This document shows positions 5,897 to 40,293 of a stretch of 64,000 nucleotides of DNA, piece after piece. The stretch is taken from contig JANWWL010000007.1 in NCBI GenBank assembly GCA_025056155.1, forward strand, positions 62,001 to 126,000. Direction: 5' to 3'. The DNA comes from Sphingomonadaceae bacterium. GTDB lineage: Bacteria; Pseudomonadota; Alphaproteobacteria; Sphingomonadales; Sphingomonadaceae. Made by a program: the position numbers and the translations under genes. Position 1 is the first letter of the stretch; each line of letters opens with the position of its first letter. Under the pieces are notes generated by a model. That model made no database searches. It saw only the letters and a list, made by a program, of their open reading frames with translations, and had not been told where the DNA came from.

Positions 5897-6562
5897 GTGC
5901 GCCGCCCGGACATCCGCGCCGACTACGCCGCCGCCGGCTTCGGCCGCGCCCTGCCATGGGGGCGGCGGCCGGCGCTGCTGCTCGTCGACTTCGCGGCCGC
6001 CTATTTCGTGCCGGACTCGCCCCTTTACGCGGGTGTCGAGGCGGCGCGCGCGGCCGCGGCCCGGCTGCGGGCGGCGTGCCGTGCGGCCGGCATTCCCCGG
6101 CTGTTCACGCGCGTGGAGTACGTGCCCGGCGATCCGGCGCGTTCGGGCGGGCTCTTCTACCGCAAGGTGGCGGCTCTCTCCTGTTTCAACGCCGGCAATC
6201 CGTTGGGCGACTTCACGCCCGAACTGGCCCCCGACGCGGACGAACCGGTCATCGTCAAGCAGTATCCCAGCGCCTTCTTCCGCACCGACCTCGCCCAGCG
6301 CCTGGAGGACCTGGGGGTCGACACGCTGCTCATCACGGGCCTTTCCACCTCGGGCTGCGTACGGGCCTCGGCGGTCGACGCCCTGTGCCACGGCTTCGTG
6401 CCGGTGGTGGTGCGCGACGCCGTGGGCGACCGCGACGAGCGCGTCCACGAGGCCAACCTTTTCGACCTGGAGGCCAAGACGGCCGACGTGGCGGATCTTG
6501 CGCGGGTGCTGGCCTATGTGGAGGGGATCGCCGCGGAGCGGACGGCGGCGGCGAAGACGTGA
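5897..6562 (+). CDS. Isochorismatase-family hydrolase (N-carbamoylsarcosine amidase / maleamate amidohydrolase-like)
   Basis: GTG start preceded by aaggaggaagg. RPALLLVDFAAAYF..., STSGCVRASAVDALCHGF catalytic Cys motif. Confidence 0.88.
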   Translation: MRRPDIRADYAAAGFGRALPWGRRPALLLVDFAAAYFVPDSPLYAGVEAARAAAARLRAACRAAGIPRLFTRVEYVPGDPARSGGLFYRKVAALSCFNAGNPLGDFTPELAPDADEPVIVKQYPSAFFRTDLAQRLEDLGVDTLLITGLSTSGCVRASAVDALCHGFVPVVVRDAVGDRDERVHEANLFDLEAKTADVADLARVLAYVEGIAAERTAAAKT

Positions 6563-13975: not shown

Positions 13976-14281
13976 ATGGCTGCGCCTTCCGAGCCGGATC
14001 CGAGGGCCGCCTCGCGGGCGGCGTCGGCCGGCCCGTCCCTCCACCCGGGCCAGCTCGACCATCTGGGCAAGGCCCTGCTGCATCTGGCCCGCGAACTGTG
14101 GGTGGTGCGCGACCGGCTGGCGGTGCTGGAGGCGGTGCTGGAGGAACGCGGCATCCCAGTGACTCAGGCGATCCAGGACTTCCAGCCGTCGGGCGAGATT
14201 GGCGAGCGGCTGGCCCGGGAACGCGCGCGCTTCACTCGCGCGCTCGTCGCCATCCTGGCGCCGGAGGATCCCGCGGCGTGA
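13976..14281 (+). CDS. Small helical partner protein, copy 1 of module
   Basis: 101 aa; LDHLGKALLHLARELWVVRDRLAVLEAVLEERGIPVTQ. Homologous by eye to 20474-20824 and 33385-33735. Starts 3 bp after the methyltransferase stop. Confidence 0.75.
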   Translation: MAAPSEPDPRAASRAASAGPSLHPGQLDHLGKALLHLARELWVVRDRLAVLEAVLEERGIPVTQAIQDFQPSGEIGERLARERARFTRALVAILAPEDPAA

Positions 14282-19342: not shown

Positions 19343-20481
19343 AACGGATCGAGGAGCAGGAAGCGCACGCCGCGCTGGCCTTCGGCGACCACGACGATCG
19401 CGCGCGGGCGGACTTCGCCTTCACCCTGCGCCACCACGTGACACAGCATTGGATGCCTGGCACCCGGCTGGTGTTCGACGCGCGGGCCCGCCACGCCTTC
19501 CGGGCCGCGCGAGGCCGCGATCCTCAGTCGCCCGACGAGATCCGGCAGGCGATGGATGCCGATCCCTGGTACCGCTTCTACCTGTCCGCCCGCCGTGCGA
19601 GCCAAGAGGCGATCTGGGCGGCCGTCGTCCCGCCGGCCGAACGGCTGGGCCCGATGCCCATGCCCCAGCGCCCGCGCGGGTCGCTCAAGCTCGATCCCTC
19701 TGTCCGGGCGCCCGCCTACATGGCGGCGATCGACATCCACTGCATGCCGGGTGGCTACCTCCTCGACCGGGGCGAGGGCGATACCGCCGCGGGTGCCGTC
19801 TACGACCGGGGCGTCTACCTCTACATGTCGGGGCTGATGGGGCCCCGCAACGACGCGGTGGGCCGGCTGGCCGTGGCCCACCTGCAGGCTCGCCTGCCCC
19901 ACTTCCGGCCCACCCGCATCCTGGACGTGGGCTGCGGCGTGGGCCATGCCACCCTGCCCTGGGCCGAGGCCTTTCCTGAAGCACAGGTAACGGGCATCGA
20001 CGTGGGAGCCGCCCTGCTGCGCCACGCCCATCTGCGGGCCGAAGCCTTCGGCCTGGGCGTGGAGTTCGTGCAGGCGGACGCCGAGGCCACCCCGTTTCCG
20101 GACGGCGCGTTCGACCTCGTGACCTCGGCCATCGTGCTGCACGAGACCTCGATCCGAGGCCTGCGCCGGATCCTCGGGGAATGCCACCGGCTGCTGGCCC
20201 CCGGCGGGGTGATGCTGCACGTGGATCAGCCGCCCTTCGACCCGGACGATCCGTGGGCCACCTTCCTGCAGGAGAACGAGACCCACTACAACAACGAGCC
20301 CTTCTGGCGCCGCTTCCGGCACCTGGACCTGGCGGCGGAAGCCCGTGCCGCGGGGTTCGGCCGGGTGGAACTGGGCACGCTGGCGGCCGAGGTGGTGCGC
20401 CAGAGCCAGAACAACGCGCCGGACGACCCGCGGGCCCGAAGCCGCGGCTTCCTGGCCTTGCTCGCCTTCCGCGATGGCTGA
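19339..20481 (+). CDS. Class I SAM-dependent methyltransferase, copy 2 of module
   Basis: Internal ATG; AIDIHCMPGGY..., RILDVGCGVGHATLPWAEAFPEAQVTGIDVG, FDLVTSAIVLHETS. Confidence 0.92.
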   Translation: MKRIEEQEAHAALAFGDHDDRARADFAFTLRHHVTQHWMPGTRLVFDARARHAFRAARGRDPQSPDEIRQAMDADPWYRFYLSARRASQEAIWAAVVPPAERLGPMPMPQRPRGSLKLDPSVRAPAYMAAIDIHCMPGGYLLDRGEGDTAAGAVYDRGVYLYMSGLMGPRNDAVGRLAVAHLQARLPHFRPTRILDVGCGVGHATLPWAEAFPEAQVTGIDVGAALLRHAHLRAEAFGLGVEFVQADAEATPFPDGAFDLVTSAIVLHETSIRGLRRILGECHRLLAPGGVMLHVDQPPFDPDDPWATFLQENETHYNNEPFWRRFRHLDLAAEARAAGFGRVELGTLAAEVVRQSQNNAPDDPRARSRGFLALLAFRDG

Positions 20482-22173: not shown

Positions 22174-23445
22174 ATGGCCGTGGCGCGCGTCAGGGTTCTG
22201 CCGATGGCCCTGCTCGCGGCCCTGCTGGCCGGGGCCGGGCCTTCCGCCCCCCCGGGCCCGCCGCGCCGCTCCACCCTCGACCCGGCCGAGGCCGAGCGCC
22301 TGTACCGCGCGCGCTTCGCGGCCCTGCGCGCCAGCCCGGCGGCCGATGTGGCGGCCTACGACCCCCTGGAGCCCGTGCCGGGGGCCAGGCCGCCGGGCCG
22401 GCTGCCCACGGCCCGGCCCGAAGAGCGCGGCCTCGACCCGGCCGCGATCGCCGCCGCCGCCCAAGTGGCGGAGGCTGCCAATTCCTCGGCCTTTCTCGTC
22501 TGGCGCAAGGGGGCGCTTGTGGCCGAACGTTACTTCCACGGCACGACGGCTGAGACCCCCGTCGTCTCCCGCTCGCTGGCCAAGCCCCTGGCGGCCATCG
22601 CCGTGGGCCGAGCGATCGCCCTAGGGGCCATCCGGTCGCTCGATCAGCCCGTGGCCGACTTCATTCCAGAATGGCGCGGCGGGCCCAAGGCCGCCATCCG
22701 GGTGCGGCACCTGCTCGACATGCGCTCGGGGCTCCTGGCCCAGGGCTTCAGCGCCGACCCGGCCAATGTCTGGTCGCGGGCGTATCTGCACCCGGTGCAC
22801 GAGCGCATCCTGATCGAGGACTATCCACTGACCGATCCGCCGGGGGAGGTGTTCGAATATTCCAACGCGGCGGCCGACCTGGTGGCGCTGGTGGTGGAAG
22901 CGGCGACCGGGCGCCGCTATGCGGACTTCGTGGGCCGGGAGGTCCTCGCCCCCCTGGGGGCGGCGGGCGGGGCCGTATGGGTCAACCGGCCGGGTGGCGT
23001 GGCCCATTCGGGCTGCTGCATCCTGCTGCCCGCCCGCACCTGGCTACGGCTGGCGCTTCTCGTAAAGGACGATGGCGTGGCCCAAGGCCGGCGCCTTTTG
23101 CCCCCTGGCTTCGTGGCCGAGATGCGGACGGCCACGCCGCAGAACCCCCACCATGGGCTGGGGGTGTGGGTGGCCGGGCCCTACGTCGAACGGCGGGGCT
23201 TCGCCAACCCGGCCCGCGGCGGGCCCAAGGTGCTCCATTCCGAGCCCTACCTGGCCCGCGACGTCGTGCTGTTCGACGGCAACGCCAACCAGGTGATCTA
23301 CATCGTGCCGTCGGCCGACCTGGTGGTGATGCGGCTGGGCGCGCCGCCACCGCGCGATCCCGAATGGGACAACGCGACGTTCCTCAACCGGATCCTGCGG
23401 GGGCTCCGGCCGGGCGAGGCCCGACTGGAGCCTCAACCGCGCTGA
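22174..23445 (+). CDS. Serine hydrolase, beta-lactamase class C-like (paralogue of 14278-15486)
   Basis: SLAK (SxxK) and FEYSNAAADL (YxN). Same layout as the first copy: PRLPTARPEERGLDPAAIA..., RPGGVAHSGCCILLPARTWLRLALLV. Confidence 0.88.
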   Translation: MAVARVRVLPMALLAALLAGAGPSAPPGPPRRSTLDPAEAERLYRARFAALRASPAADVAAYDPLEPVPGARPPGRLPTARPEERGLDPAAIAAAAQVAEAANSSAFLVWRKGALVAERYFHGTTAETPVVSRSLAKPLAAIAVGRAIALGAIRSLDQPVADFIPEWRGGPKAAIRVRHLLDMRSGLLAQGFSADPANVWSRAYLHPVHERILIEDYPLTDPPGEVFEYSNAAADLVALVVEAATGRRYADFVGREVLAPLGAAGGAVWVNRPGGVAHSGCCILLPARTWLRLALLVKDDGVAQGRRLLPPGFVAEMRTATPQNPHHGLGVWVAGPYVERRGFANPARGGPKVLHSEPYLARDVVLFDGNANQVIYIVPSADLVVMRLGAPPPRDPEWDNATFLNRILRGLRPGEARLEPQPR

Positions 23446-23461: not shown

Positions 23462-24496
23462 TCAGCCCTGGGCCTGGCGGAACCAGGCCGGCAGTTCCGG
23501 GTCGGGCGCGCGGGGGATGGGCGCGCCTGCCGGCACGGGCGCAGGTCGTTGCGTGCGCGCGTACCACTCGAGGCTTGACAGGCTGGGCTCCTCCCAACGG
23601 TCGGGCGCCTCGAGGAACTTGGGCGCGTGGCGGGCCACCCAGTCGACCGTGCGGCGGTCGATCTGGTCGAGCGAATCCACCGCCCCCATGAAGGTGTGAT
23701 ACTGGCAATGGCCGGGCGTGGGGCCCATCAGCATCCAGGGCAGCCAGGGCGTGGTCCGGCTCCAGGTGCCGTGATACGTCACGCTTGTGCGTCGGCGGTC
23801 CTGCATTTCGGGCCACTCGATCTGGTAGAGGAACACTTCCGTCACCTGGACGAAGGGATGCGCGCTTTCCCGCGGCCACTTCGCGGGCGGCAGGGCCGAG
23901 GGATAGAACAGGTTGATGTGCGTCATCAGGTGCAGGCGGTCGCCGTGTCGCGTCCAGTCGAGGAGCAGCGGCCGGGGGGGAGGCACCGCCCGGTTGAGCC
24001 CGCCGTAGGAAGGCGGCGGAGGGCGGAATTCCGTGATGGTGTGGTTGAAGGGATCGTTCATGATGTGGACCACCTTCACCCGTTCCCCCAGGTAGGGATT
24101 GGTCCACTCCTCAAGCACCTCGCCCGATTCGAGGTCGGTGTAGAGGCCGATTTCGCGCAGCACCTTGCGATAGCCCACCCCGCTTTCGTGCGGCAACAGC
24201 CGCGCGCACGAGAGCATGGTGAAACCCACCAGATCCCGTACCGCCTCGCCCGGGCGCACGCCTTGCACGATGCCGCGCGCCCAGCCGTACTTGGTGCTCT
24301 TCATGTCGGTGTTGCCCAGAAGGCGCGCCCACGCCTCCATGTTGCCCCGCGGCGTCGTGAGGTCGAGGAACGGCCCCTTGAGCGCCGCGGGCGACCGGTC
24401 GGGCCGGCCCACGGCGCCGGCCGCCCCGGCCCGCACCAGGCCGACCCCGGCCGCCAGCGCGGCCGAGGCCATCAGCAGCTCGCGTCGTTCGAACAT
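23462..24496 (-). CDS. DUF1838 family protein with Tat-like signal
   Basis: MFERRELLMASAALAAGVGLV signal; GNTDMKSTKYGWARGIVQGVRPGEAVRDLVGFTMLSCARLLP and LYQIEWPEM resemble DUF1838 proteins. Confidence 0.75.
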   Translation of the reverse strand: MFERRELLMASAALAAGVGLVRAGAAGAVGRPDRSPAALKGPFLDLTTPRGNMEAWARLLGNTDMKSTKYGWARGIVQGVRPGEAVRDLVGFTMLSCARLLPHESGVGYRKVLREIGLYTDLESGEVLEEWTNPYLGERVKVVHIMNDPFNHTITEFRPPPPSYGGLNRAVPPPRPLLLDWTRHGDRLHLMTHINLFYPSALPPAKWPRESAHPFVQVTEVFLYQIEWPEMQDRRRTSVTYHGTWSRTTPWLPWMLMGPTPGHCQYHTFMGAVDSLDQIDRRTVDWVARHAPKFLEAPDRWEEPSLSSLEWYARTQRPAPVPAGAPIPRAPDPELPAWFRQAQG

Positions 24497-24601: not shown

Positions 24602-25462
24602 ATGGCGGATAGCGAGGTGGCCCCGCCCGCGCGGCCGGTGGGGGAGGAACGCGACGGCAACGTTCGCGCGCTGGCCCGAGGGTTGGCCGTGCTCCAGGTC
24701 ATCAACCGCAAGGGCTCCGTCAGCATGATGGAGATCGCCCGCGGGGCGGCCATTCCCTACCCCACGGCCTGCCGGATCGTGCAGACGCTCATCGAGCTGG
24801 GGATGGTCGAGCGCGAGCCCGGCCGCAAGCGCTACCGGCCGACACCCATGGTGCTCACCCTGTCGCGCGGCTACAGTGCCGAGGACGAGTTGGTGCGCGT
24901 GGCGCGCCCGTACCTGGTGGAGCTCACGCGACGCTTCTTGTGGCCCGTGTCGCTGTCCACCCGAGTGGGCAGCTACATGATGGTGCGCGACAGCACGCAC
25001 CGGCTGACGACTCTCACGCTGCACAACTACGCTCCGGGCTTCACTTTGCCCATCGTCGAATGCGCATCGGGCAAGGCATACTTGGCCTTCTGCGACCCGG
25101 AGGAGCGAGCCCTCATCCTGCAGGGGCTGTTCGCCCTCGACGGGCCGGCCGAACGCATGGGCCGCCTGCTCCTGGCCGAGCCGACTCTTCTCGAGCGCAT
25201 CCGCGCCCAGGGGCACGCCACCCAGGCCCGCAACGTCTACACCGCGCACCCGGGCAAGACGTCGTCGCTCGCCGTGCCCGTGTTCCGCGACGACCGGGTG
25301 GTGGGCGCCTTGGCCCTCATCTTCTTCGCATCCGCCATGCGGATGCGCGAGGCCGAGGAACGCTTCGCCCCGGCGCTGAAGGCCACGGCGCACGACATTA
25401 CCCAGGCGCTCGCAGCCACGTCCCGGCACGGGGCCGGCCCCGAAGCTCCGCAGGGCGGATAA
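24602..25462 (+). CDS. IclR-family transcriptional regulator
   Basis: RALARGLAVLQVINRKGSVSMMEIARGAAIPYPTACRIVQTLIELGMVEREPG wHTH, then effector domain PIVECASGKAYLAF. Confidence 0.94.
   Translation: MADSEVAPPARPVGEERDGNVRALARGLAVLQVINRKGSVSMMEIARGAAIPYPTACRIVQTLIELGMVEREPGRKRYRPTPMVLTLSRGYSAEDELVRVARPYLVELTRRFLWPVSLSTRVGSYMMVRDSTHRLTTLTLHNYAPGFTLPIVECASGKAYLAFCDPEERALILQGLFALDGPAERMGRLLLAEPTLLERIRAQGHATQARNVYTAHPGKTSSLAVPVFRDDRVVGALALIFFASAMRMREAEERFAPALKATAHDITQALAATSRHGAGPEAPQGG
25447..25459. promoter_or_regulatory. Palindromic operator candidate, site 4: TCCGCAGGGCGGA
   Basis: Same core as site 3, overlapping the 3' end of iclR, 116 bp upstream of the TonB receptor start. Confidence 0.6.
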
Positions 25463-25574: not shown

Positions 25575-28034
25575 ATGACGTATCGCGCCTTGCTGCTTGC
25601 CTCGGCCGTGGCGCTGGCCGCCCCGGCTGCGGCCCAGGTGATCCTCGACGCTTCGGCCGACCGGCAGGAGGAGATCATCGTCACCGCCCGCCAGAGCGAG
25701 GAACGCCTGCAGGACGTGCCCATCGCCATCTCGGTGGTGCGGCCCGAGGACATCCGCCGGCAGGGCATGTTCTCGTTGCGCGACGTGGCGTCGGTCGTGC
25801 CGGGCTACGCCTTCGAGACGCTGCAGCCCCTTGTGCCGCAGACGGTGATCCGGGGCCAGACGAACCTGAGGGTCGACAGCCCCGTCACCAACGTCGCCTA
25901 CTTTGTCGACGGGGTGTATCTGCAGCGGCCCTTCCTCGTGGACCAGCGGCTGCTCGAGATCGCGCGCTTCGAGGTGGTGAAGGGGCCCCAGTCTGCCCTC
26001 TACGGCCGCAACGCCTTCGCCGGCGCCGTGAGCATCGCCACGGTGGCCCCGGACCTTGCGGAGATCCAGGGCCGGGTGGGGGGCACGATCGGCAACCACG
26101 GCCGGCACGAGGGGCGAGGCTTCGTCTCGGTGCCCATCCTCCGCGACCGGCTGGCGGTGCTGGTGGCCGGCGCCTGGTCGGACTTCGACGGCACCTGGCC
26201 CAACGCGCACCCGCTGGCCGACGCCGAAGGGGCCAACAGCCGGGGCAAGCTGGGCGGCTTCCGCAACTGGATGGTGCAGGGCCGGATCACTGCCCGGCTG
26301 GCCGAGACGCTGCGGCTGGAAGCGAGCTACATCCGCACCGAGCGCGACGAGGAAGCGCTGCCCTCCTACACCGTGGGCACGCAGACCCTGCTCTATCCCT
26401 TCAACACCTTGAACGCGAGCCCGCGGCCGGGCCTCACGCCGCCGTTCACGGTCCAGAACCGCCTGTGGGTGGGCCCTTTCCCCTCGACCCCCGTGGTCGC
26501 CCCGCAGGACACGCTGCGCCCACCCGGCGTCGTCATCGACCCTCGCGCCTTCGGCCTGCGCGGCCCCACGGAATTCGCCACCGCCAAGCTGGCGTGGAGC
26601 CCGGACGCGCCCGTGTCGGTCGACTATCTGTTCGGCTACGCCTGGGGCGAGGTGCTGGGCCGGGGCTCACCCAGCCCCAACCCGTTGCGGCCCGTGCTGG
26701 TGCCCTTCCCGCCCTTCAACCTGGGCACCATCTTCGACGAATCGGGCACCGATTCCGCGTTCCGCGGCACGAGCCACGACCTGCGGTTCGTCTTCCGCGG
26801 CAACGAGCGGTGGAACGGTTTCATCGGGTTCCACCATTCGCGCACGAAGGACATCGCCTCGAACGCGACGTCGAACGCGCCCGTCAACTCGCTGGTCGAG
26901 CCCGACCCGGCCGTCTACCTCTTCCCCATCGGCCCCGGGCTGCCCTTCCCCAACAACCTGTTCCAGCGCAACACTTACCTCGAGCGGCGCGAGCGCATCC
27001 ACGCCCTCTACTATTTCGCCGAGGTGCGCCCGCTGGAGCGCCTGGCCGTCACCTTCGAGGGCCGCCTCAGCATTGAGGACCAGGACGCCACCGACTTCCT
27101 AACGCGCGAGCCCACCAATCCGGCCGTGCAGGCCTTCCGGCCCCCCACCTTCCGACAGTCGATCACCTATTTCGCCCCCCGCGTCACGGCCACCTATCGC
27201 CTAAGCCCCGACCACATGGTCTACGCTTCGGCCGCGCGCGGGGTGAAGGCCGGGGGCATCAACGGCAACCTGCCGTTCGTGCCGCAGCGGACCTACGACA
27301 GCGAAACCAACTGGACCTACGAAATCGGCACCAAGAACCGCTTCGGCCCCTTCACCGCCAATCTTGCGGCCTATTACACCGATTGGCGCGACCTGCAGAC
27401 CACGGTGGTGCGCCTGAACGCCGACGGCACGGCGCCGTCGTTCTTCGCCATCGTGCCTTCCACGATCGGCAACGTCGATGGCGGGGCGCGGATCTGGGGC
27501 CTCGAGGCCGAGCTGGCCTGGGCGCCCACCGACGCCCTCCGTTTCTACGCCAACGCGGCCTACAGCAATTCGCGCTACAAGGACGGCACCACCTCCCAGC
27601 GCTTCGGAGCGTCGGGCAACTGCGACGGGGTGGTGTGCCGCACGATCCCCGGCACCCCCACCCCGGTTCTGCCCATCGGAGGCAACCGGCTGGAGCGGGT
27701 GCCCCTCTACGACGCCGCCGTGGGCGGACGCTACGACCTCAAGCTCGCCAACGGCCTCGGGCTGTTCGCCTCCCTCGAAGGCACGTTCAAGTCGAGCCAA
27801 TTCATGGACGAAGCCAACCTGTCCTCGGTGCCGTTCCGGGCGCTGATGAACGGCACCATCGGGGCTGACTTCCGCGGCTTCGAGCTCACCTTCTGGGCGC
27901 GCAACATCCTCGACAAGGAATACGTGACCTCGGCCCTCTTCCTGATCGGCACGAACGGGGCCCTGTCAGCCTCGTACGTGCCCACCTTCGGCGAACGGCG
28001 CACGCTGGGACTGACCGGGGCCTTCCGCTTCTGA
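25575..28034 (+). CDS. TonB-dependent outer-membrane receptor
   Basis: MTYRALLLASAVALAAPAAAQ signal; EEIIVTARQSEERLQDVPIAISVV; C-terminal GERRTLGLTGAFRF. Confidence 0.94.
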   Translation: MTYRALLLASAVALAAPAAAQVILDASADRQEEIIVTARQSEERLQDVPIAISVVRPEDIRRQGMFSLRDVASVVPGYAFETLQPLVPQTVIRGQTNLRVDSPVTNVAYFVDGVYLQRPFLVDQRLLEIARFEVVKGPQSALYGRNAFAGAVSIATVAPDLAEIQGRVGGTIGNHGRHEGRGFVSVPILRDRLAVLVAGAWSDFDGTWPNAHPLADAEGANSRGKLGGFRNWMVQGRITARLAETLRLEASYIRTERDEEALPSYTVGTQTLLYPFNTLNASPRPGLTPPFTVQNRLWVGPFPSTPVVAPQDTLRPPGVVIDPRAFGLRGPTEFATAKLAWSPDAPVSVDYLFGYAWGEVLGRGSPSPNPLRPVLVPFPPFNLGTIFDESGTDSAFRGTSHDLRFVFRGNERWNGFIGFHHSRTKDIASNATSNAPVNSLVEPDPAVYLFPIGPGLPFPNNLFQRNTYLERRERIHALYYFAEVRPLERLAVTFEGRLSIEDQDATDFLTREPTNPAVQAFRPPTFRQSITYFAPRVTATYRLSPDHMVYASAARGVKAGGINGNLPFVPQRTYDSETNWTYEIGTKNRFGPFTANLAAYYTDWRDLQTTVVRLNADGTAPSFFAIVPSTIGNVDGGARIWGLEAELAWAPTDALRFYANAAYSNSRYKDGTTSQRFGASGNCDGVVCRTIPGTPTPVLPIGGNRLERVPLYDAAVGGRYDLKLANGLGLFASLEGTFKSSQFMDEANLSSVPFRALMNGTIGADFRGFELTFWARNILDKEYVTSALFLIGTNGALSASYVPTFGERRTLGLTGAFRF

Positions 28035-28036
28035 GC

Positions 28037-28627
28037 ATGGGCGATCCCCAGGCGCTGAAGGCCGAGCTGGCGGCCCTGGCGGCCGCGTCGGAGGGGTTCT
28101 CCGACCGGGACCCCCGCGCCCCGCAGCTCGATGCGCTGGCCAAGGCGCTGGAGGCCCACAACCCCACCGCCGAGCCCGCCCGCGCCCACCATCTGCTGGG
28201 AGGGCGCTGGGCCTTGTTGTGGTCGTCGTTCGGGCTGCCCCGCCACACTACGCTCGCCCGCCTGACGTTCAACGTCCTGCCCAAGGCGCCGGTGGAGGTG
28301 GAGGCGCTGTTCCAAGAGGTGGATCCGACCACCGGCCTCTACGACAACGTCGTGACCTACCGATGCCAGGAGACCGGCCGGGCTGGAACCTGCGTGACCT
28401 TGGGTCGCTACGGGCCGCACGACGGCACCCGGCTCGACGTGACCTTCACCCATGCGCAAGCCACGGGACATCCCCGCCAACCGATCCGGACCGACCGGCT
28501 CCCGCCCCTCTGGTCGGACGTGACCTACCTCGACGCCGACTTCCGCCTCAATCGGGGCAGCTTCGGCAGCCTGTACGTGCTGCGGCTGGTCGAGCGGCGA
28601 CCGGCCGCCTGGGCGCGGGACGGTTGA
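28037..28627 (+). CDS. PAP/fibrillin (plastid lipid-associated protein)-like protein
   Basis: LEAHNPTAEPARAHHLLGGRWALLWSSF and DVTYLDADFRLNRGSFGSLYVLRL match the family pattern (LEA.NPT.P...L.G.W.L.YTS / TYLD..LRI.RG..G.LFVL). Confidence 0.78.
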   Translation: MGDPQALKAELAALAAASEGFSDRDPRAPQLDALAKALEAHNPTAEPARAHHLLGGRWALLWSSFGLPRHTTLARLTFNVLPKAPVEVEALFQEVDPTTGLYDNVVTYRCQETGRAGTCVTLGRYGPHDGTRLDVTFTHAQATGHPRQPIRTDRLPPLWSDVTYLDADFRLNRGSFGSLYVLRLVERRPAAWARDG

Positions 28628-29496
28628 GGCCGCCCCGCCGGGCGCTGCTGGCAGCGCTGGTCGCCGGCCTGGCCGCACGGGCGCTCGGCTTGGGCCGCAA
28701 GGGCGGGGCGCTTCCCCCGCCCGACGGCCCGTCGGCCCAGGACCTCGAGCATCGGGGCACGCTCGTGCGGCTGTGGACTCCGGCCGCCCCCCACGAACGC
28801 ACGCGGGCCGTCGCCTTCTCGCACGGGGCCAACGCCAGCGCCCGGCGCTACGACGAACTGTGCCATGGCTTGGCCGAGGCCGGCCACGCCGTGGCGGCCG
28901 TGACCCATCCCGACAGCCCCGAACATCCGGCGAGCCGGCGGCCGACCAGCCCGGCCGACGGCTGGCGCCAGCGCCTGGCCGACCTACGCGCCGCACTCGA
29001 CCTGTTGGCCACCCGGTTTCCCGGCCGCCCGCTGGCCGTTGCAGGCCACAGCTATGGCGCACTGGTGGCCCAGGCGCTGGGCGGCGCGCGTGTAGCTTGG
29101 GCGGGGGATGGCGGCCCGCTGCCCGACCCCCGGGTGCGCCGGGTGGTGGCGTTCTCGCCGCCGGGCCCGTTGCCGAGCGTGATCGGGGCGGAGGGCTTCG
29201 CCGCGATCGCCGTTCCCCTGTTCGTGGCCACGGGAACGGCCGACGTGGTGCCGCCCGTGGCGACGACCTGGGAGGCGCACCTTGCAAGCTTCGAGGCCGC
29301 GACGATCTCGCCCCGGTGGGCGTGGGTCGGTGATCGGGTGGACCATTATTTCGGCAATCGCATCGGCCGGCCCGAGCGCGCCTTCGACGAGCGCCAGGCC
29401 CGCCTGTTCGGGCACGCGCTGGCGGCTGCGGTCGCCTTCCTCGAGGAGCTCGGGCCCCCGCCCGCGGCCGACGGCGTGCGCCTTCTGGTGCGTTAG
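28624..29496 (+). CDS. Alpha/beta hydrolase
   Basis: Probable TTG start overlapping the upstream stop; AVAFSHGANASARRYDELCHGLAEAGHAVAAV; AVAGHSYGALVAQ nucleophile elbow (GHSYG). Confidence 0.82.
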   Translation: MRPPRRALLAALVAGLAARALGLGRKGGALPPPDGPSAQDLEHRGTLVRLWTPAAPHERTRAVAFSHGANASARRYDELCHGLAEAGHAVAAVTHPDSPEHPASRRPTSPADGWRQRLADLRAALDLLATRFPGRPLAVAGHSYGALVAQALGGARVAWAGDGGPLPDPRVRRVVAFSPPGPLPSVIGAEGFAAIAVPLFVATGTADVVPPVATTWEAHLASFEAATISPRWAWVGDRVDHYFGNRIGRPERAFDERQARLFGHALAAAVAFLEELGPPPAADGVRLLVR

Positions 29497-30335
29497 GCCT
29501 GCCACAACACGGGGAACAGCGCGTCCGGCGGCGGGGCTCCGGGCACCATGGCGGGATGGTCGGAAAGACCGGCCACGTGCACGGACAGGGCGTCGGGCGC
29601 CCACACCACGTCCGAGCCCAGCCAGCGCGTGGTGAAGGCCACCCGCCGGCGCCCGCGGCCGGCCGCCCGGCTGGCGTGGATGGTGCGCGGATGAATGAGC
29701 AGCGCATCGCCCGCCCGCGCCGTCCACACGCGGATGTCGGCGTCGGGGGCCGTGGCCCGCGCCAGCAACTCGTCCCACGGGCGATAGCCCGGCAGGCGGA
29801 CGTCCTGCCGCGACAGGGGCGAATGGTAGCGCCAGCGGTCGTGGTTCGAGCCGGCCAGGGTGAGCAGCGGAGCGTCCTCGGGGCCCACGTCGGTCAGGGC
29901 CACCCACAAGCTCGGCTGCTGCTCGCCCTGGAAGGGAAAGGTGCACACGTCGTTGTGCCACGGGGTGGCGGTGCCGGGATCGGCGGCCTCCTTGATGAAG
30001 GTGGCGTCCATCCAGAAGCGCACGCTGCGCGCACCGGTGATCCGGCCCACGAGCTCCGCGGCCGGGCTGGACCTCAGCCAGTCGAGGAAGGTGGTGTCGG
30101 TCGACATGCAGTTGCGCAGCTGGATGCCGCCCTCGCCCGTGCGGTGAATCGACGGGGGATTGCGCGGCCCGACGCTTCCCACCAGCCGTGGCGGGCAGCC
30201 CGTGGCGAAGGCGGCCCGGCACCGCTCGATGGCCGCAAGCAGCCGCTCGACCCAACGGGCGTCGAACGCGCCCTCGATCCGGGTGCAGCCTTCGGCAGCG
30301 TACTGCGCGACGTGCTCAGGGCCAATCCGCATCAC
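29493..30335 (-). CDS. Phytanoyl-CoA dioxygenase (PhyH)-family Fe(II)/2OG oxygenase
   Basis: TPWHNDVCTFPFQGEQQPSLWVALTDVGPEDAPLLTLAGSNHD...LLIHPRTIHAS; HxD..H layout. Confidence 0.86.
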   Translation of the reverse strand: MMRIGPEHVAQYAAEGCTRIEGAFDARWVERLLAAIERCRAAFATGCPPRLVGSVGPRNPPSIHRTGEGGIQLRNCMSTDTTFLDWLRSSPAAELVGRITGARSVRFWMDATFIKEAADPGTATPWHNDVCTFPFQGEQQPSLWVALTDVGPEDAPLLTLAGSNHDRWRYHSPLSRQDVRLPGYRPWDELLARATAPDADIRVWTARAGDALLIHPRTIHASRAAGRGRRRVAFTTRWLGSDVVWAPDALSVHVAGLSDHPAMVPGAPPPDALFPVLWQA

Positions 30336-31019: not shown

Positions 31020-31784
31020 ATGCGCAAGGCCTACGTCGACACGCCCCATGGCCAGCTGCACCTGCGCGACACGGGGGGTGGGGGGCCCGTGCTCCTTCTC
31101 CTTCACATGACCCCGCTGTCGGGCGCCATGTTCGCCCACCTGGGGCCGGCCTTCCCGGGCGTTCGCCTTCTCTGCCCCGATCTTCTGGGCTACGGCCGCT
31201 CGGACCCGAGGCCCGCCGCGTGGAGCCTCGGCCAGTGGGCCGACGGGCTTGCCGCCCTGCTCGACGGGCTCGGGCTTCCCACGGCGGCCGTCTACGGTGC
31301 GCACCTGGGCGCGGCCGTGGCCCTTGAGCTTGCCGTGCGGCATCCGGGACGGGTCCGGCGGCTCGTGCTCGACGGGCTGCCCTTCCCCACCCCGCAGCTC
31401 AAGGCGGCGCTTGCCGCGATGGGCGGCGCGCCGCCGCCCGGCGGGCTTGCCGAAGTGGTGGCGCGGGTGGAGCGGCTGCTCGAGGAGTTTGGTGGGCTCG
31501 ACCCCTTCGCCGCCTGCCGCGACTATCTGGAAACGGGCTTCGTGTCCTCGGCCGCCGTCCTTCAGGACTATGCGCCCGAGGATCGGCTGCGCGCCGTCAC
31601 CGTCCCCCTTCTGGTCGTGGGGGCCGACGGCGACAGCCAGTGGCCAAGTTTCGCGGCCACGCTGGCGGTCCGTCCGGATGCGGCGCGGCACGCGTGGCCA
31701 GGCCCGCATCCCGTCCACGACCCCGCGCGCGCCGCCGCGTTCGCCGGGCCCTTGCGCGCGTTCCTGGCGGAACCTCCGCCCTAG
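31020..31784 (+). CDS. Alpha/beta hydrolase
   Basis: MRKAYVDTPHGQLHLRDTGGGGPVLLLLHMTPLSGAMFAHLGPAFPGVRLLCPDLLGYGRSD; lid/core pattern; alternative start 30984. Confidence 0.87.
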   Translation: MRKAYVDTPHGQLHLRDTGGGGPVLLLLHMTPLSGAMFAHLGPAFPGVRLLCPDLLGYGRSDPRPAAWSLGQWADGLAALLDGLGLPTAAVYGAHLGAAVALELAVRHPGRVRRLVLDGLPFPTPQLKAALAAMGGAPPPGGLAEVVARVERLLEEFGGLDPFAACRDYLETGFVSSAAVLQDYAPEDRLRAVTVPLLVVGADGDSQWPSFAATLAVRPDAARHAWPGPHPVHDPARAAAFAGPLRAFLAEPPP

Positions 31785-33352
31785 TCGAGCCCCAGCGCGC
31801 CGGGGTTCAGGATGCCGTGGGGATCCAGGGCGGCCTTGATGGCCTGGACGAGCGCTCGGCTGGGAGCGTCCCGCGAGGCGAGCCAGGGATAGACCCGACC
31901 CACCTGGAGGTGGGCGCCGCCATGCCGGGCCATCAGCGCGATGATCTCGGCCTTCATCCGCAGCGCTTCGGCCCGGGCGGCCGGATTGTCGGGATACTGG
32001 GGCAGCCCGGCCAGATGGTCAGGGGGAACCGTGCGCTCGTGGTAGATGGAGCGCGCATCGGGCCAATAGAAAGTGGGCTCGTAGACGAAGGCGTTGGGCC
32101 CCACGCTCATGAACATCCGGCCCGAGGTGATGCCGAAGCGCTCCATCACCGGGGCCTGCTCGGCGAAATAGGCCTCGAGCTCGGCGTGGAAGGCCGCCAC
32201 CCGATCGTGGGGCAGCAGCGTGTGGAACGGCACCCACCGTTCGCCCTTAGGCCCCAGGACGTTGGTGAGCGGCGCGAAGGGCATGGACCGCACCACGGTG
32301 GGCACGGAATTGGGGATTTCGACCGCGCCCTGCCCCACCGCCAGCTCGCGAATGCGGGCGGCCCGGTCGCGCGCCTCGGCAGGAGTCACCCCTTCGGCGA
32401 TGTAGTGGACGGCGTAGGTGGCCCGCTTCAGGTCCTTTTCGCCCGCCACCGCCATGCGGGCCAGGGTGCGGACCCCCCGGGTGAGCGAGCCTTCGCCCTT
32501 CCACACCCGGGCGGCGATGTCGGCCTTGGCGGCCACCCCCTTCTGCCGGCCGATCTGGCCTTGCTGCAGCGTGGCATCCAGGCCGAAGTTCTCGTCGTCG
32601 AGCGCTTCGACGGCGATCCGACGCATCGCCTCGTGCAGGGCCTCGAACCGGGCGAAGTCGAACGACAGCGCCTCGTAGTGCGGGCGGCGCCGGATCAGCT
32701 TCAGGCGCACGCGGGCCTTGATGCCGAAGGCCCCGCAATCGCCGGTGAACAGGCCGGCTAGGTCGGGGCCATAGAAGCGGAAGAAGGGGGTGCCGGTCGA
32801 CAACAGTTCCCCCGTGCCCGTCACGACGTCAAAGCCCACGAGCGATTCGGCCGAGACTCCCCATATTCCCGTCCCGTGCGAAATCGAATGCTGGCTCATC
32901 GAGCCCGCAACCGTGGCCGCCAGGCCCGAGAAGGGGCCGAAGAAAGGCGTCCGCAGCTCGTGGGGAAGGAGCGCGTCCCGGAGTTCCGCCCAGGTGACTC
33001 CGGCCTCGACGGTCACGACGGCGTTCGTCGCATCGACCGTGATGGCCTTGAGCCGCGATGGGTCGACGGTGACACCCCCCGGCCGAGCGTGCGTGTAGCC
33101 GTCGGTGTAGGATGCCCCCCCGCCCCGCACGACGACGGGCGCGCGCGCCTCGGCCGCCACGCGCACCACGGCCGCAAGCTCGTCCACCGAGCCTGGGCGC
33201 ACCACCGCCAGCGGCACCTCCACCGCCCGAAGCACGTCGGTTGCATAGAAGCGGCGTTCGACCTCCTCGGTCAGCACATGGGCCGGCCCCACGATTGCCG
33301 CCAGCCGCTCCACCAGCCCCGGTGCGTCCGCCGGGCGTGCCGCCGTCGCCAT
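31781..33352 (-). CDS. FAD-linked oxidase (FAD_binding_4, vanillyl-alcohol oxidase/D-lactate dehydrogenase type)
   Basis: EVPLAVVRPGSVDELAAVVRVAAEARAPVVVRGGGASYTDGYTHARPGGVTVDPSRL; ...NPGALGLD C-terminus. Confidence 0.9.
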   Translation of the reverse strand: MATAARPADAPGLVERLAAIVGPAHVLTEEVERRFYATDVLRAVEVPLAVVRPGSVDELAAVVRVAAEARAPVVVRGGGASYTDGYTHARPGGVTVDPSRLKAITVDATNAVVTVEAGVTWAELRDALLPHELRTPFFGPFSGLAATVAGSMSQHSISHGTGIWGVSAESLVGFDVVTGTGELLSTGTPFFRFYGPDLAGLFTGDCGAFGIKARVRLKLIRRRPHYEALSFDFARFEALHEAMRRIAVEALDDENFGLDATLQQGQIGRQKGVAAKADIAARVWKGEGSLTRGVRTLARMAVAGEKDLKRATYAVHYIAEGVTPAEARDRAARIRELAVGQGAVEIPNSVPTVVRSMPFAPLTNVLGPKGERWVPFHTLLPHDRVAAFHAELEAYFAEQAPVMERFGITSGRMFMSVGPNAFVYEPTFYWPDARSIYHERTVPPDHLAGLPQYPDNPAARAEALRMKAEIIALMARHGGAHLQVGRVYPWLASRDAPSRALVQAIKAALDPHGILNPGALGLD

Positions 33353-33384: not shown

Positions 33385-33735
33385 TCAGGCCTGTGCGATG
33401 TCCTCGATTGTCCGCCGGAAGGCCTGCTCGGTCTCGCCGCGCGCGGCATCCGCGGCGTCCTTCCGTGCGAGATAGTAGAGCCGCGCCAGAAACGCCTGGC
33501 GCCACGCCTCGCGGCGGGCCAGGGTCTCGGGCGACGGCTCGTGCGCTTCGATCGCCGCGGTGGCGTCGATGCCGTGGGCGGCCAGCACCCCCTCCAGCGT
33601 GTCCATCCGCTCGCGCATCACCGAAAGTTCCGCGGCCAGCACCAGGATCATGCTCATGGCCTGGTCCAGGCCCTGGGCCGCGTAGAATTGCGGGCGCCGA
33701 CCCCGGGCGTCGCGCGGCAGCCGGGCTGCGGTCAT
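33385..33735 (-). CDS. Small helical partner protein, copy 3 of module
   Basis: MTAARLPRDARGRRPQFYAAQGLDQAMSMILVLAAELSVMRERMDTLEGVLAAHGIDATAAIEAHEPS...; 116 aa, ATGA overlap with the methyltransferase stop. Confidence 0.78.
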   Translation of the reverse strand: MTAARLPRDARGRRPQFYAAQGLDQAMSMILVLAAELSVMRERMDTLEGVLAAHGIDATAAIEAHEPSPETLARREAWRQAFLARLYYLARKDAADAARGETEQAFRRTIEDIAQA

Positions 33736-34922
33736 TCGGGTTTCCTTCCCACCAGGATCTCCCAGCCGCCGCCGGGGGCGAACTCGCCCGCCACGAACTC
33801 GCGCTCGGCCCCTCCGGCCGCGCCGGCCGCCTCCAGGATCGCCATGGGGGCCGTGTCGAAGCGGACGTCGACGAACCCGGCCGCCCGGGCCAGGGCCGGC
33901 TGATCCACGTCGCGCATGGCCCCCCAGAAGGGCTCGTTGTTGTACCAGGTCTCGTTGTCGAGGATGAACTGGGCGAAGGGATCCATCAGGTCGAAGGGCG
34001 GCAGGTCGGCGTGGATCATCAGGCCCCCGGGCTTCAGGATGCGGAAGCATTCGTGGAAGATCCGGGGCATGGCCTTCCCGCTCGTCTCGTGCAGCAGGAT
34101 GTGGCTCACCACCAAGTCGAAATGATCGTCGGGAAAGCCGGTCGCTTCGGCGTTGCGCTGGCGGAACGCCACCTCGAGGCCCAGGCCCGCCGCCCGCGCA
34201 TGGGCATAGCGCAGCTGCGGCGCGGCCACGTCGATGCCCGTCACCTCCGCCTCGGGGAAGCCTTCCTTGTAGGGTAGGGTGGAGTGGCCCACGGTGCAGC
34301 CCAGGTCCAGGATGCGCTGCGGCCGGAAATCGGGCAGGTGCCGCTTGAGCCAGTTCACCACCGAGCGGCCCATGTCGTCGTTGAAGGGCCCCATGAACCC
34401 CATGGCGTAGAGGAACACGCCGCGGTCGTAGAGCGCGCCGGCGGCCACGTCGTCGGGGCCCGCCTCGGCGGCGTAGCCGCCCGGCATGCAGTGGATGTCG
34501 ATGGCGGTCACGTAGCGGGGCACGTCGAAGCCGGCGGCGATCTCGAGCGGGGCGGTGGCTCGGGCCGAGAGTTGCGCCGCGCGGGCATTGAGCGCGCTCC
34601 ACTGTCGCTCGATCGAATCGAGCACGCTTTCCCACAGCAATTCCTGGGCGATGCGGTTCGTGGCGGCGTAGTGCTGGAAGTAGGGATCCTCAACCATGCC
34701 GCGGCGGATGTCGTGTCGGTCGGCCGGGGGCCGGCCGTGGGCGCGCGCGAACGCCGGGCCGACCCGGCCCTGGAATACGGGGCCCAGGCCGGGCAGCAGG
34801 CCCTGCTGCACGAACCCCTTGAGCGATCTGGCGAACTCCTGGCGCGCCCGCTCGTCGTGCGTGGGCTTGGGCAGCACCGGGTGTTCGGCTTGCCGGACGA
34901 TGCCGAGGGTTCCTGCCGTCAT
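33732..34922 (-). CDS. Class I SAM-dependent methyltransferase, copy 3 of module
   Basis: AIDIHCMPGGY (identical in copy 2); RILDLGCTVGHSTLPYKEGFPEAEVTGIDVA; FDLVVSHILLHETSGKAM. Confidence 0.92.
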   Translation of the reverse strand: MTAGTLGIVRQAEHPVLPKPTHDERARQEFARSLKGFVQQGLLPGLGPVFQGRVGPAFARAHGRPPADRHDIRRGMVEDPYFQHYAATNRIAQELLWESVLDSIERQWSALNARAAQLSARATAPLEIAAGFDVPRYVTAIDIHCMPGGYAAEAGPDDVAAGALYDRGVFLYAMGFMGPFNDDMGRSVVNWLKRHLPDFRPQRILDLGCTVGHSTLPYKEGFPEAEVTGIDVAAPQLRYAHARAAGLGLEVAFRQRNAEATGFPDDHFDLVVSHILLHETSGKAMPRIFHECFRILKPGGLMIHADLPPFDLMDPFAQFILDNETWYNNEPFWGAMRDVDQPALARAAGFVDVRFDTAPMAILEAAGAAGGAEREFVAGEFAPGGGWEILVGRKPE

Positions 34923-35866
34923 GCCGCCTCCTTCCGCTCCGGAGCCGCCTGCCGCAGGGCCGCGCGGTGGGCGGCGGCCTCGTCCGACTCCATGTACCAG
35001 CGCGCCAGTTCCTCGCGCGTGGGCCACCACACGCCGGGCAGGGATTTCGCAAAGGCCAGGAATTCCCGCAAGGCCTGGATGCGGTAGGCCCGACCCGAGA
35101 CATGAGGATGCAACCCCACGTTCATGATCCGGGCGTGCACGGCCCCTTCGGCGTACAGGGCCTCGAGTTCGCCCAGCAGGATGTCGCGCATTTCGGCAGG
35201 CCCATGACCGCGCCGGACGACCAGGGTGAAGTCGTTGATCTCGTTGGAGTAGGGGACGATGCACAGCGGCCCGGCCGGCGTGTCGAGGGGCCAGGGCTGG
35301 TCGTCGTTCATGAGGTCGCACCAGAAGCGCACGCCCGCTTCGGCCAGGATCCGCCCCGTCTCGAGCGTGCTCCGAAGCGACGACGACAGCCAGCCCGCCG
35401 CCGGCCGCCCGACGTGGCGCTCGTAGGTGGCGAGCGTTGCGCGAATGACGGCCCGTTCGCGCTCGGGCTCGCCATGGAAGTCGGTGAGGAGTTCGCCCTG
35501 CTCGCGGTTGTGGGCCAGGATCTCCCAGCCGCGGGCGAGGGCCGCCTGCGTCATCTGCGGCCGATGCTCGAACGTGGCGGCGTTGGCCGTGCAGCTGGCC
35601 CTCACGCCCATCTCGTCGAACAGCCGGAATAGGCGCCACACCCCCACCCGCTGGCCGTATTCGCGCCAGGTGTAGTTGGGGTAATCGGGCACGCGCCCCG
35701 GCAAGGGGTCGGGCAGGATGGGCGGGCCGCCGGCGTAGTAGGGCCGGTCGGTGTCCTTCACGAGATCCCAGGTCTCGAGGTTGAGCGTGAGGATGAGGGC
35801 CACCCGCGCCCCGCCCGGCCATTGCAGCCGCGGCCGATCCGGCAGGGGCACATAGGGCCACGACAT
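34919..35866 (-). CDS. Polysaccharide deacetylase/PuuE-like family protein
   Basis: ARVALILTLNLETWD..., YGQRVGVWRLFRLFDEMGVRASCTANAATFEHRPQMTQAALARGWEILAHNREQGELL; NodB-like layout. Confidence 0.82.
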   Translation of the reverse strand: MSWPYVPLPDRPRLQWPGGARVALILTLNLETWDLVKDTDRPYYAGGPPILPDPLPGRVPDYPNYTWREYGQRVGVWRLFRLFDEMGVRASCTANAATFEHRPQMTQAALARGWEILAHNREQGELLTDFHGEPERERAVIRATLATYERHVGRPAAGWLSSSLRSTLETGRILAEAGVRFWCDLMNDDQPWPLDTPAGPLCIVPYSNEINDFTLVVRRGHGPAEMRDILLGELEALYAEGAVHARIMNVGLHPHVSGRAYRIQALREFLAFAKSLPGVWWPTREELARWYMESDEAAAHRAALRQAAPERKEAA

Positions 35867-36654
35867 CAGAATTCAGCCAGCAGGCGCCCGAAGCCGCGCA
35901 TCCGGTCAGGGATGCCGTTCGAGCGCAGCGCCCACCAGTAGGTGGCGGTGTTGATGGCGATCACGGGTTTCTCGAGCCAGAACTCGGCGATCGCCGCCAC
36001 GCGGGCGAACGCCAGGTTGGTGCCGCACTGCACGATGGCGTCCACGTCGGGCCCGTTCACGCGTTCCACCGCGCGCTTGAGGTCCGCCTCGGACACGTGC
36101 GCGATCAGGCGCGGGGAAGCGCACTTGAGCCCCTCGACGGCGACCACGTCGTAGCCGCAATCCTCGAAGAAGCGGCGCACCTGGGCATCGCCCACGGGCA
36201 TGTACGGGGTGATGACCGCGATCCGCCGGATGCCGCCATAGGCCTTGAGCGCTTCGTGGACGGCCTGGCTGCCCATCACCACCGCCCGGCCCGTGCGCTC
36301 CCGCAGCGCGCGGTGCATGCGCTCAGCCCCTTCCGCCCCGTCCCAGAAGGTCTCGGCCGACATGCCCATGATGAGGTCGTCGGGCGCCATCGACATGGCC
36401 TGGGCCACGGCCTCGAGCGTGGCGCGGCGGATGTTGTTCAGCATCACCATGAAGCTGTCGTCGTCGGTCACGCGCGTGTCCGGGATGGTGATGCGCGCGA
36501 TGTGGTTGGTGACCCCGTGGGGCCGCATCGCGTCGTATTCCGGTTGCACGCTGGTGTTGGTGGACGGCACGACCACGGCGAACAGCCGGCGCCAGCCCAG
36601 CGAATCGCGCGTGGTGGCCGCCACCGCCGGCCGGTCGAGCGTGTCGATCGCCAT
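35866..36654 (-). CDS. Maleate isomerase/arylmalonate decarboxylase-like (Asp/Glu racemase superfamily)
   Basis: RLFAVVVPSTNTSVQPEYDAMRPHGVTNHIARITIPD...IAVITPYMPVGDAQVRRFFEDCGYDVV...AIVQCGTNLAFARV. Confidence 0.87.
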   Translation of the reverse strand: MAIDTLDRPAVAATTRDSLGWRRLFAVVVPSTNTSVQPEYDAMRPHGVTNHIARITIPDTRVTDDDSFMVMLNNIRRATLEAVAQAMSMAPDDLIMGMSAETFWDGAEGAERMHRALRERTGRAVVMGSQAVHEALKAYGGIRRIAVITPYMPVGDAQVRRFFEDCGYDVVAVEGLKCASPRLIAHVSEADLKRAVERVNGPDVDAIVQCGTNLAFARVAAIAEFWLEKPVIAINTATYWWALRSNGIPDRMRGFGRLLAEF

Positions 36655-36744: not shown

Positions 36745-36820
36745 CAGTCGCCACCCCTCATCCCCGCAGGACCCGCGCCTGGGCCACCGGCGGCGCGGAC
36801 GGGCACGGGCGAGCGGGCGG

Positions 36821-38056
36821 ATGGCAGCGCAAGGAAAGGCGGCAAACGGGGGGTCCTTCCGCCGGGCGGTCCCGGGGGGCGACGTCGAGGTGCTGGTGGC
36901 GGGCGCCGGGCCCGTGGGCGCCGTGGCCGCCACGGCCCTGGCCCAGGCGGGGGTGGACGTGCTCTTGGTCGAGGCGGCTGCCGCGTGCCCCGAGGACCTT
37001 CGCGCCAGCACCTTCCATCCGCCCACCCTCGAGATGCTGGACAGGCTCGGCCTTCTGGCCCCGCTGGTCGCCCAGGGCCTCAAGGCCCCCGTCTATCAGT
37101 ACCGCGTCCGCTCGACGGGCGAAGTGCTGGCCTTCGACCTGGGGGAACTTGCGGACCTGACCCCCTTTCCCTTCCGCCTGCAGTGCGAACAGTGGAAGCT
37201 GTCGCGGCTTGCCACCGAGCGGCTGGGCGAGCGCGTGCGCTTCCAGCGCCGGGTGGTGCACTTCGCGCAGGACCGCGACGGTGTCACCGTGCACCTCGAG
37301 GCGCCGACCGCGATCGAGGAGGTGCGCGCTCGGTACCTGGTGGCGGCCGACGGGGCGAACAGCCTGATCCGCAAGTGGCTGGGCGTGGCGTTCGAGGGCT
37401 TCACCTATCCCGAGAAGTTCCTGACCCTGTCCACCGACTGCCCGCTGGAAGCGCATTTCCACGACCTGGCCTACGTGAACTACGTGTCGGATCCCGAATG
37501 GTGGCACGTGATGCTGCGCACGCCGTCGTTGTGGCGGGTGCTGGTGACCGCGCCCAACGACACGCCCGACGAGGTCCTCCTGTCGGATGCGACCACCGCC
37601 ACCGTGTTCCGGCGTCTCATCGGCGATCCGTCGGTGGTGACACGGCATCGCACCATCTACCGCGTGCACCAGCGCGTGGCCGCCCGCTTCGATCACGGGC
37701 GCGTGCATCTGGTGGGCGATGCCGCCCACCTCAACAATCCGCTGGGCGGCCTGGGGATGAACTCGGGCATCCACGACGCCATGAACCTGGCGGACAAGCT
37801 CGTGCGGGTGCTGCGCGACGGCGCCGACCCCGACGAACTTCTGCCCCGCTTCGGCCGGCAGCGCCGCGCCGTGACGCTGAGCTTCATCCAGGAGCAGACG
37901 CAGCGCAACAAGGCGATGATGGAAGCGAGCGAGGCGGCCCGCCGCCCGGTGTTCGCCGAACTGGCGCGTGTCGTGAAGGATCGCGACCGCCGCCGCGCGT
38001 GGATGCGCCGGCAGGCGATGTTCACGAGCCTCGAGGAGGCCGCGGCCGTCCCCTGA
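36821..38056 (+). CDS. FAD-dependent aromatic monooxygenase (MhpA/PHBH-like)
   Basis: DVEVLVAGAGPVGAVAATALAQAGVDVLLVEA; YLVAADGANSLIRKWLGV; GRVHLVGDAAHLNNPLGGLGMNSGIHDAMNLADKL. Confidence 0.92.
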   Translation: MAAQGKAANGGSFRRAVPGGDVEVLVAGAGPVGAVAATALAQAGVDVLLVEAAAACPEDLRASTFHPPTLEMLDRLGLLAPLVAQGLKAPVYQYRVRSTGEVLAFDLGELADLTPFPFRLQCEQWKLSRLATERLGERVRFQRRVVHFAQDRDGVTVHLEAPTAIEEVRARYLVAADGANSLIRKWLGVAFEGFTYPEKFLTLSTDCPLEAHFHDLAYVNYVSDPEWWHVMLRTPSLWRVLVTAPNDTPDEVLLSDATTATVFRRLIGDPSVVTRHRTIYRVHQRVAARFDHGRVHLVGDAAHLNNPLGGLGMNSGIHDAMNLADKLVRVLRDGADPDELLPRFGRQRRAVTLSFIQEQTQRNKAMMEASEAARRPVFAELARVVKDRDRRRAWMRRQAMFTSLEEAAAVP

Positions 38057-40276: not shown

Positions 40277-40293
40277 CGCGCCGGCCGGCGGCC

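Follow-up and report, generated by a model that had tools for sequence, protein, structure and literature searches.

Operon structure links a bacterial fibrillin to a TonB-dependent receptor (TBDR) and a discrete pathway, and this has come about twice independently. One such gene is encoded in the window (the whole stretch of DNA that was analyzed, 64,000 nucleotides), where it lies between the genes for a TBDR and an alpha/beta-hydrolase (Table 1). Fibrillins have been described as plant, algal, and cyanobacterial proteins (PMC11580037) and from oxygenic phototrophs (PMC2716323). We found no report of a fibrillin outside oxygenic phototrophs among the open-access papers searched. As a tentative assignment, we consider the window fibrillin to be a cytoplasmic lipocalin-like carrier which may bind a hydrophobic compound imported by the receptor, or an early intermediate.

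Table 1. Features of the window around the fibrillin gene and in the catabolic island
Feature	Coordinates	Strand	Evidence
Isochorismatase-family amidohydrolase, far end of catabolic island	5897..6562	+	PF00857 E=1.6e-34, PDB 26st N-carbamoylsarcosine amidohydrolase
Serine hydrolase, beta-lactamase/esterase fold, exported, recurs in clusters	22174..23445	+	PF00144 E=3.4e-29
DUF1838 protein, Tat-like N-terminus, conserved next to IclR gene	23462..24496	-	PF08894 E=4.5e-41
IclR-family regulator, 5' of receptor, conserved in relatives	24602..25462	+	profile match, neighbour table
TonB-dependent receptor, plug and barrel, Sec-type signal peptide	25575..28034	+	PF00593 E=2.1e-30, PF07715 E=3.5e-16
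PAP/fibrillin (PF04755) protein, 196 aa, no signal peptide	28037..28627	+	Pfam, AlphaFold2, Foldseek
Alpha/beta-hydrolase, Tat-like N-terminus	28624..29496	+	PF12146 E=1.3e-13, junction and N-terminus
PhyH-family dioxygenase	29493..30332	-	PF05721 E=1.8e-19
FAD_binding_4 oxidase, conserved catabolic cluster	31781..33352	-	PF01565 E=3.2e-29
Small protein paired with SAM methyltransferase	33385..33735	-	recurring cluster family, weak PF23186
SAM-dependent methyltransferase, conserved in cluster	33732..34922	-	profile match, recurring cluster family
PuuE-allantoinase-like cyclic amide hydrolase, cluster marker	34919..35866	-	TIGR03212 E=9.6e-38 (below cut-off), PDB 3cl6 E=2.9e-31
AMDase/maleate-isomerase-family protein	35866..36654	-	PF17645 E=4e-18, PDB 2xed putative maleate isomerase E=2.3e-9
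FAD-dependent aromatic hydroxylase of cluster	36794..38056	+	PF01494 E=6.1e-59

Identification of the fibrillin

The PF04755 profile matches the open reading frame with E = 4.7e-15 (56.5 bits, cut-off 22) and covers residues 7-182 of the protein and positions 3-197 of the 198 in the profile, which is a full-length match above the curated cut-off. A sequence-only reading had proposed the PAP/fibrillin identity and had called for this search; the assignment is confirmed by the profile match and by the fold comparison described below. PF04755 did not match the opposite strand of this region, and no NCBIfam match to the window fibrillin was obtained at E 0.001. Homologues from congeneric genomes are 65-68% identical, and the homologue from Thermaurantiacus tibetensis (L015) differs at 38, 44, and 92 sites of codon positions 1, 2, and 3, respectively. 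This is as expected under protein constraint, and we thus consider 28037-28627 to be a real gene. The fibrillin-pattern motifs noticed at both ends of the protein are present in the open reading frame. The C-terminal strand motif YLD..(F/L)R..RG..G..YVL occurs as YLDADFRLNRGSFGSLYVLRL, and residues Y164, D166, R170, G174, G177, and Y180 are invariant across 16 aligned fibrillin rows.

An AlphaFold2 model, built from 16 sequences, has a mean pLDDT of 91.5 and a pTM of 0.87, with two N-terminal helices followed by a series of beta-strands. According to Foldseek, the top PDB match is rice fibrillin 5 (9jwr; E 7e-12, TM 0.65-0.69), followed by lipocalins (nitrophorins, RBP4, ApoD, E. coli Blc; TM about 0.3-0.4, E 1e-3 or worse). 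The window fibrillin is thus predicted to be a lipocalin-like beta-barrel as in FBN5, which is what the sequence-only reading had expected from a structure prediction. That reading would have given up the assignment if PF04755 had not matched and the fold had not been lipocalin-like; neither is the case, because the match is significant and the predicted fold is lipocalin-like.

Rice/Arabidopsis fibrillin 5 and the window fibrillin share the PF04755 fold over the whole chain and a C-terminal YLD..R..RG-type motif. In contrast to fibrillin 5, to which it is about 20% identical, the window protein lacks a transit peptide, has no prenyl synthase nearby, and is found in a bacterial catabolic setting. 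Lipocalins such as Blc, nitrophorin, and RBP4 have the antiparallel barrel in common with it, and the subfamily-1 fibrillins (see below) carry an N-terminal GRW strand motif; however, the fold similarity is weak (TM about 0.4, E 1e-3 or worse), there is no sequence match, and the lipocalin Pfam families do not match the window fibrillin. Kernel lipocalins are defined by a sequence match together with GxW and TDY, of which subfamily 1 has GRW alone, and the protein therefore falls outside that group. It is likewise not a plastid/cyanobacterial fibrillin in the strict sense, as its host belongs to the Sphingomonadales, has purple-type pufLM, and is no oxygenic phototroph.

No signal peptide was detected in the window fibrillin: its N-terminus is MGDPQALKAEL, the first ATG is at 28037, and there is no in-frame start codon upstream of it. 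The remaining fibrillin copies likewise have no clear hydrophobic signal segment, whereas the receptors have one.

Distribution and subfamilies

Fibrillins are rare in the Proteobacteria sampled. PF04755 was detected in 7/301 genomes of the order, 11/401 of the family, 2/337 of the class, and 1/349 of the phylum sample, the window genome being included in every count and being the sole positive of the phylum sample. Alignment and tree resolve two subfamilies. Subfamily 1 comprises the proteins from the window, Thermaurantiacus, the Sandarakinorhabdus group, and genome G238; subfamily 2, to which the window protein is 25-32% identical, comprises those from other Sphingomonadales, Eilatimonas, and one gammaproteobacterial MAG (G651).

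A cyanobacterial fibrillin from Nostoc sp. C057 (plasmid p057_H, WP_256874751) is 36-37% identical to the window fibrillin at a coverage from 83% to almost full length. It differs in that no TBDR or catabolic genes adjoin it and that its host is an oxygenic phototroph. The Nostoc protein groups with subfamily 1 (support 100/99). Since the tree includes no other cyanobacterial sequence and the Nostoc branch is long, it gives no direction for a transfer between cyanobacteria and Alphaproteobacteria. A phage origin of the fibrillin was considered and rejected, there being no phage match, and so was a plasmid origin, since the sole plasmid match is the Nostoc one, with unrelated neighbours.

The receptor-fibrillin-hydrolase unit

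In the window, the receptor and fibrillin genes are joined as TGA-GC-ATG, and the fibrillin stop codon overlaps the hydrolase start by 4 bp (TTGA), so that the 2 bp gap and the overlap seen in the sequence-only reading are both correct. In four congeneric genomes, receptor and fibrillin genes themselves overlap as TGATG, and the fibrillin-hydrolase junction is again a 4-bp overlap (GTGA or ATGA); gene boundaries in the relatives are from a simple gene caller, and at two loci (L015 and L022), where the hydrolase start was called further downstream, the overlap is that of the junction sequence alone. The hydrolase N-terminus in L019, SRRAALFGLAGLALPARA, is Tat-like, and the hydrolase is therefore probably exported. 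The coupled unit would thus join an outer-membrane protein (TBDR), a cytoplasmic one (fibrillin), and a probably periplasmic one (hydrolase).

The DUF1838 gene is kept divergently beside the unit formed by the IclR, receptor, and fibrillin genes.

Recurrent pairing with TonB-dependent receptors

Thermaurantiacus (5 genomes), G238, Eilatimonas, an Altererythrobacter MAG, and Sphingomonadaceae 3-68-G all have a TBDR gene as the next gene 5' of the fibrillin gene, in the same orientation. The adjacency thus spans five genus-level lineages and two receptor clades and is conserved beyond close relatives. In a receptor tree, with the remaining receptors of the window genome (G000) taken as background, receptors paired with subfamily-1 and with subfamily-2 fibrillins fall into separate, well-supported groups. 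As the two linked sets lie in separate clades, we conclude that the pairing arose at least twice.

Among 201 genomes of the family, orthologues of the window receptor with at least 61% identity were found only in four Thermaurantiacus genomes and G238, and all have a fibrillin directly downstream. A relative with 49% identity (G314) lies where its contig ends; another, with 35% identity (G208), is without fibrillin. The window genome has 26 TBDR barrel matches, which translates into a rough chance adjacency near 1% per locus, with the gene number estimated from the 2.2 Mb genome. The probability of pairing in five of about 14 lineages is then about 5e-7, an approximate value from a test that was chosen after seeing the data.

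The catabolic cluster

In sphingomonads, aromatic catabolic islands fed by a TBDR hold the receptor, an IclR regulator, flavin monooxygenases, hydrolases, and transporters together. The island in the window shares all of these, but differs by having a fibrillin in the coupled unit of the receptor and by its amidase/maleate-isomerase chemistry.

Several families recur around the fibrillins of both subfamilies: the flavin hydroxylase, the AMDase/maleate-isomerase-like protein, the PuuE-like hydrolase, the SAM methyltransferase with its small partner, the FAD_binding_4 oxidase, a flavocytochrome-c-like FAD protein, the isochorismatase-type amidase, the IclR regulator, and the serine hydrolase. 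At least seven cluster families recur around subfamily-2 fibrillins, and the clusters of that subfamily additionally hold a PEP-mutase/isocitrate-lyase-like lyase. These families suggest a chemistry of cyclic amides/imides and substituted maleates.

With the PuuE-like protein (at least 62% identity) as cluster marker, the cluster was found in 10/14 genomes with and 3/66 without fibrillin (p = 1.5e-7, kinship ignored). Because the fibrillin-bearing genomes are related, the p-values given in this text overstate independence and are descriptive. In the four fibrillin-bearing genomes devoid of the marker, the only fibrillin present is the one linked to a quinone oxidoreductase (see below); in G238 and G351, the marker is far from the fibrillin. 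As 4 of the 14 fibrillin genomes are without the marker and three cluster-bearing genomes are without fibrillin, neither strictly needs the other.

Phototrophy and the second fibrillin locus

The host genome (2.2 Mb) is from the Sphingomonadales, close to Thermaurantiacus, and falls in one genus with Thermaurantiacus tibetensis. It carries pufL and pufM (G000:C1:130248-131916), and the host is therefore an anoxygenic phototroph. The description of the setting as non-photosynthetic-looking thus applies to the operon but not to the organism. In the order sample, reaction-centre genes are present in 7/7 fibrillin-bearing genomes and in 47/294 others (p = 4e-6). A strict dependence of fibrillin on phototrophy is nevertheless rejected, as several genomes with fibrillin have no pufLM match (Eilatimonas, Sandaracinobacter neustonicus [G393], L038, and several MAGs, some of them incomplete). 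No photosynthesis gene cluster surrounds the fibrillin at any locus examined.

At four loci in pufLM-bearing MAGs (L033-L036), subfamily-2 fibrillins adjoin a pyridoxamine-oxidase-type flavoprotein, with no receptor alongside; this flavoprotein weakly matches the cyanobacterial family TIGR04026 (tested in L036).

The host has a second fibrillin (C3:179210) beside a PIG3-type quinone oxidoreductase, adjoining cytochrome c maturation (ccm) genes. In most genomes of the Sandarakinorhabdus group, the sole fibrillin copy is at this locus, which lies outside the catabolic cluster and in most cases has no receptor gene next to it. That the quinone oxidoreductase specifically serves the second fibrillin was considered, but this reading is weakened: the oxidoreductase-DUF1192 pair also occurs in each of the four fibrillin-less genomes checked, and the neighbour is thus not fibrillin-specific.

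In three genomes (L014/L023, L048, and L050; e.g., L048:10127-11533), an RPE65/carotenoid-oxygenase-family gene directly follows the second-type fibrillin on its 3' side. Its product falls between the lignostilbene and apocarotenoid dioxygenase families, below all cut-offs.

Proposed function and alternatives

The ligands and the biochemical role of fibrillins are still debated. We favour the carrier assignment because a cytoplasmic barrel protein is coupled to a receptor gene amid exported hydrolases and cytoplasmic enzymes of the flavin and amidohydrolase types. Against it speak the fibrillin copies at the quinone-oxidoreductase locus and the genomes in which fibrillin and cluster marker occur one without the other or far apart. 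The TBDR would import a large or poorly soluble compound, too large or too scarce for porins, which would be trimmed by exported hydrolases (the alpha/beta-hydrolase and possibly the serine hydrolase and the DUF1838 protein) and moved inward by a transporter of the cluster. In the cytoplasm, the fibrillin may then take up this hydrophobic compound, or an intermediate formed early from it, in its barrel and pass it to the conserved cluster's flavin hydroxylases and amidohydrolases. The sequence-only reading had suggested that the protein may bind a hydrophobic substrate (lipid, isoprenoid, or quinone) delivered by the receptor. The tight link to the TBDR stands and is repeated in distant lineages; uptake from the receptor in the periplasm does not, because the fibrillin has no signal peptide. 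A direct periplasmic hand-off, to which the receptor as immediate operon neighbour might have pointed, is therefore rejected as most improbable: the window fibrillin has neither a signal peptide nor an upstream in-frame start, and the remaining copies have no clear signal segment.

The main rival to the carrier assignment is a role of the plant/cyanobacterial type, with fibrillin serving lipid particles rich in pigment, carotenoid, or quinone, or else photosynthetic membranes, as a structural component or carrier, and the receptor linkage being a by-product of the landing site of a duplicate. We regard this as rather unlikely, although it has some support. Reaction-centre genes accompany the fibrillin throughout the order sample, but 47 genomes have pufLM without fibrillin, and fibrillin also occurs where pufLM was not found (Eilatimonas, G393, L038) and outside photosynthesis gene clusters at every locus examined. 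The quinone oxidoreductase upstream at the second locus would fit a quinone-related role, yet with DUF1192 it is found in 4/4 fibrillin-less genomes checked. Similarity to the Nostoc fibrillin (36% over 83%) and the RPE65/carotenoid-oxygenase-family gene in three genomes also agree with such a role, while the receptor pairing that arose at least twice argues against a by-product. Still less probable, in our view, is a non-enzymatic partner or scaffold of a cluster enzyme, with the barrel being more a protein-interaction surface than a ligand pocket. Plant fibrillin 5 binds solanesyl diphosphate synthase in plastoquinone synthesis in this way, and rice fibrillin 5 is the nearest solved structure; however, FBN5 and the window protein are about 20% identical, none of the fibrillin copies was found next to a polyprenyl synthase, and the neighbouring enzymes vary between loci.

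If the carrier assignment holds, the substrate of the receptor would show what a fibrillin barrel binds, and TonB-dependent catabolism would gain a dedicated cytoplasmic carrier. Receptor-linked fibrillins occur in the cultured bacteria Thermaurantiacus tibetensis and Eilatimonas milleporae.

Candidate substrates

One conceivable but quite improbable substrate class are tetrapyrroles (chlorophylls, bacteriochlorophylls, or bilins). The receptor would import the pigment, the fibrillin would carry it in the cytoplasm, and flavin monooxygenases would open it; the resulting dialkylmaleimides would be degraded by the PuuE-like hydrolase, the isochorismatase-type amidase, the maleate-isomerase-like protein, and the lyase of the PEP-mutase/isocitrate-lyase type. 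The imide/maleate-type chemistry of the cluster permits tetrapyrrole breakdown without demonstrating it. Compatible with it, though none is specific, are the esterases, the PhyH protein, and a full-length methylaspartate ammonia-lyase encoded next to a subfamily-2 fibrillin cluster (L017:14234-15469, genome G212); no tetrapyrrole-specific enzyme was found. Breakdown of pyridines, pyrimidines, or other N-heterocycles fits about as well.

Additional observations on the catabolic islands

A LeuCD-like pair in Eilatimonas was considered as a dimethylmaleate hydratase, which is not supported since both proteins score above the ordinary LeuC/LeuD cut-offs. The window has three related SAM methyltransferases (12917-13972, 19339-20481, and 33732-34922), two of which are followed by a partner gene for about 100 aa (13976-14281 and 33385-33735). 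This pair recurs in many related clusters, in genomes with and without fibrillin alike. At the edge of the catabolic island, an alpha-L-fucosidase-family gene adjoins a Coq4-like gene (39035-41253).
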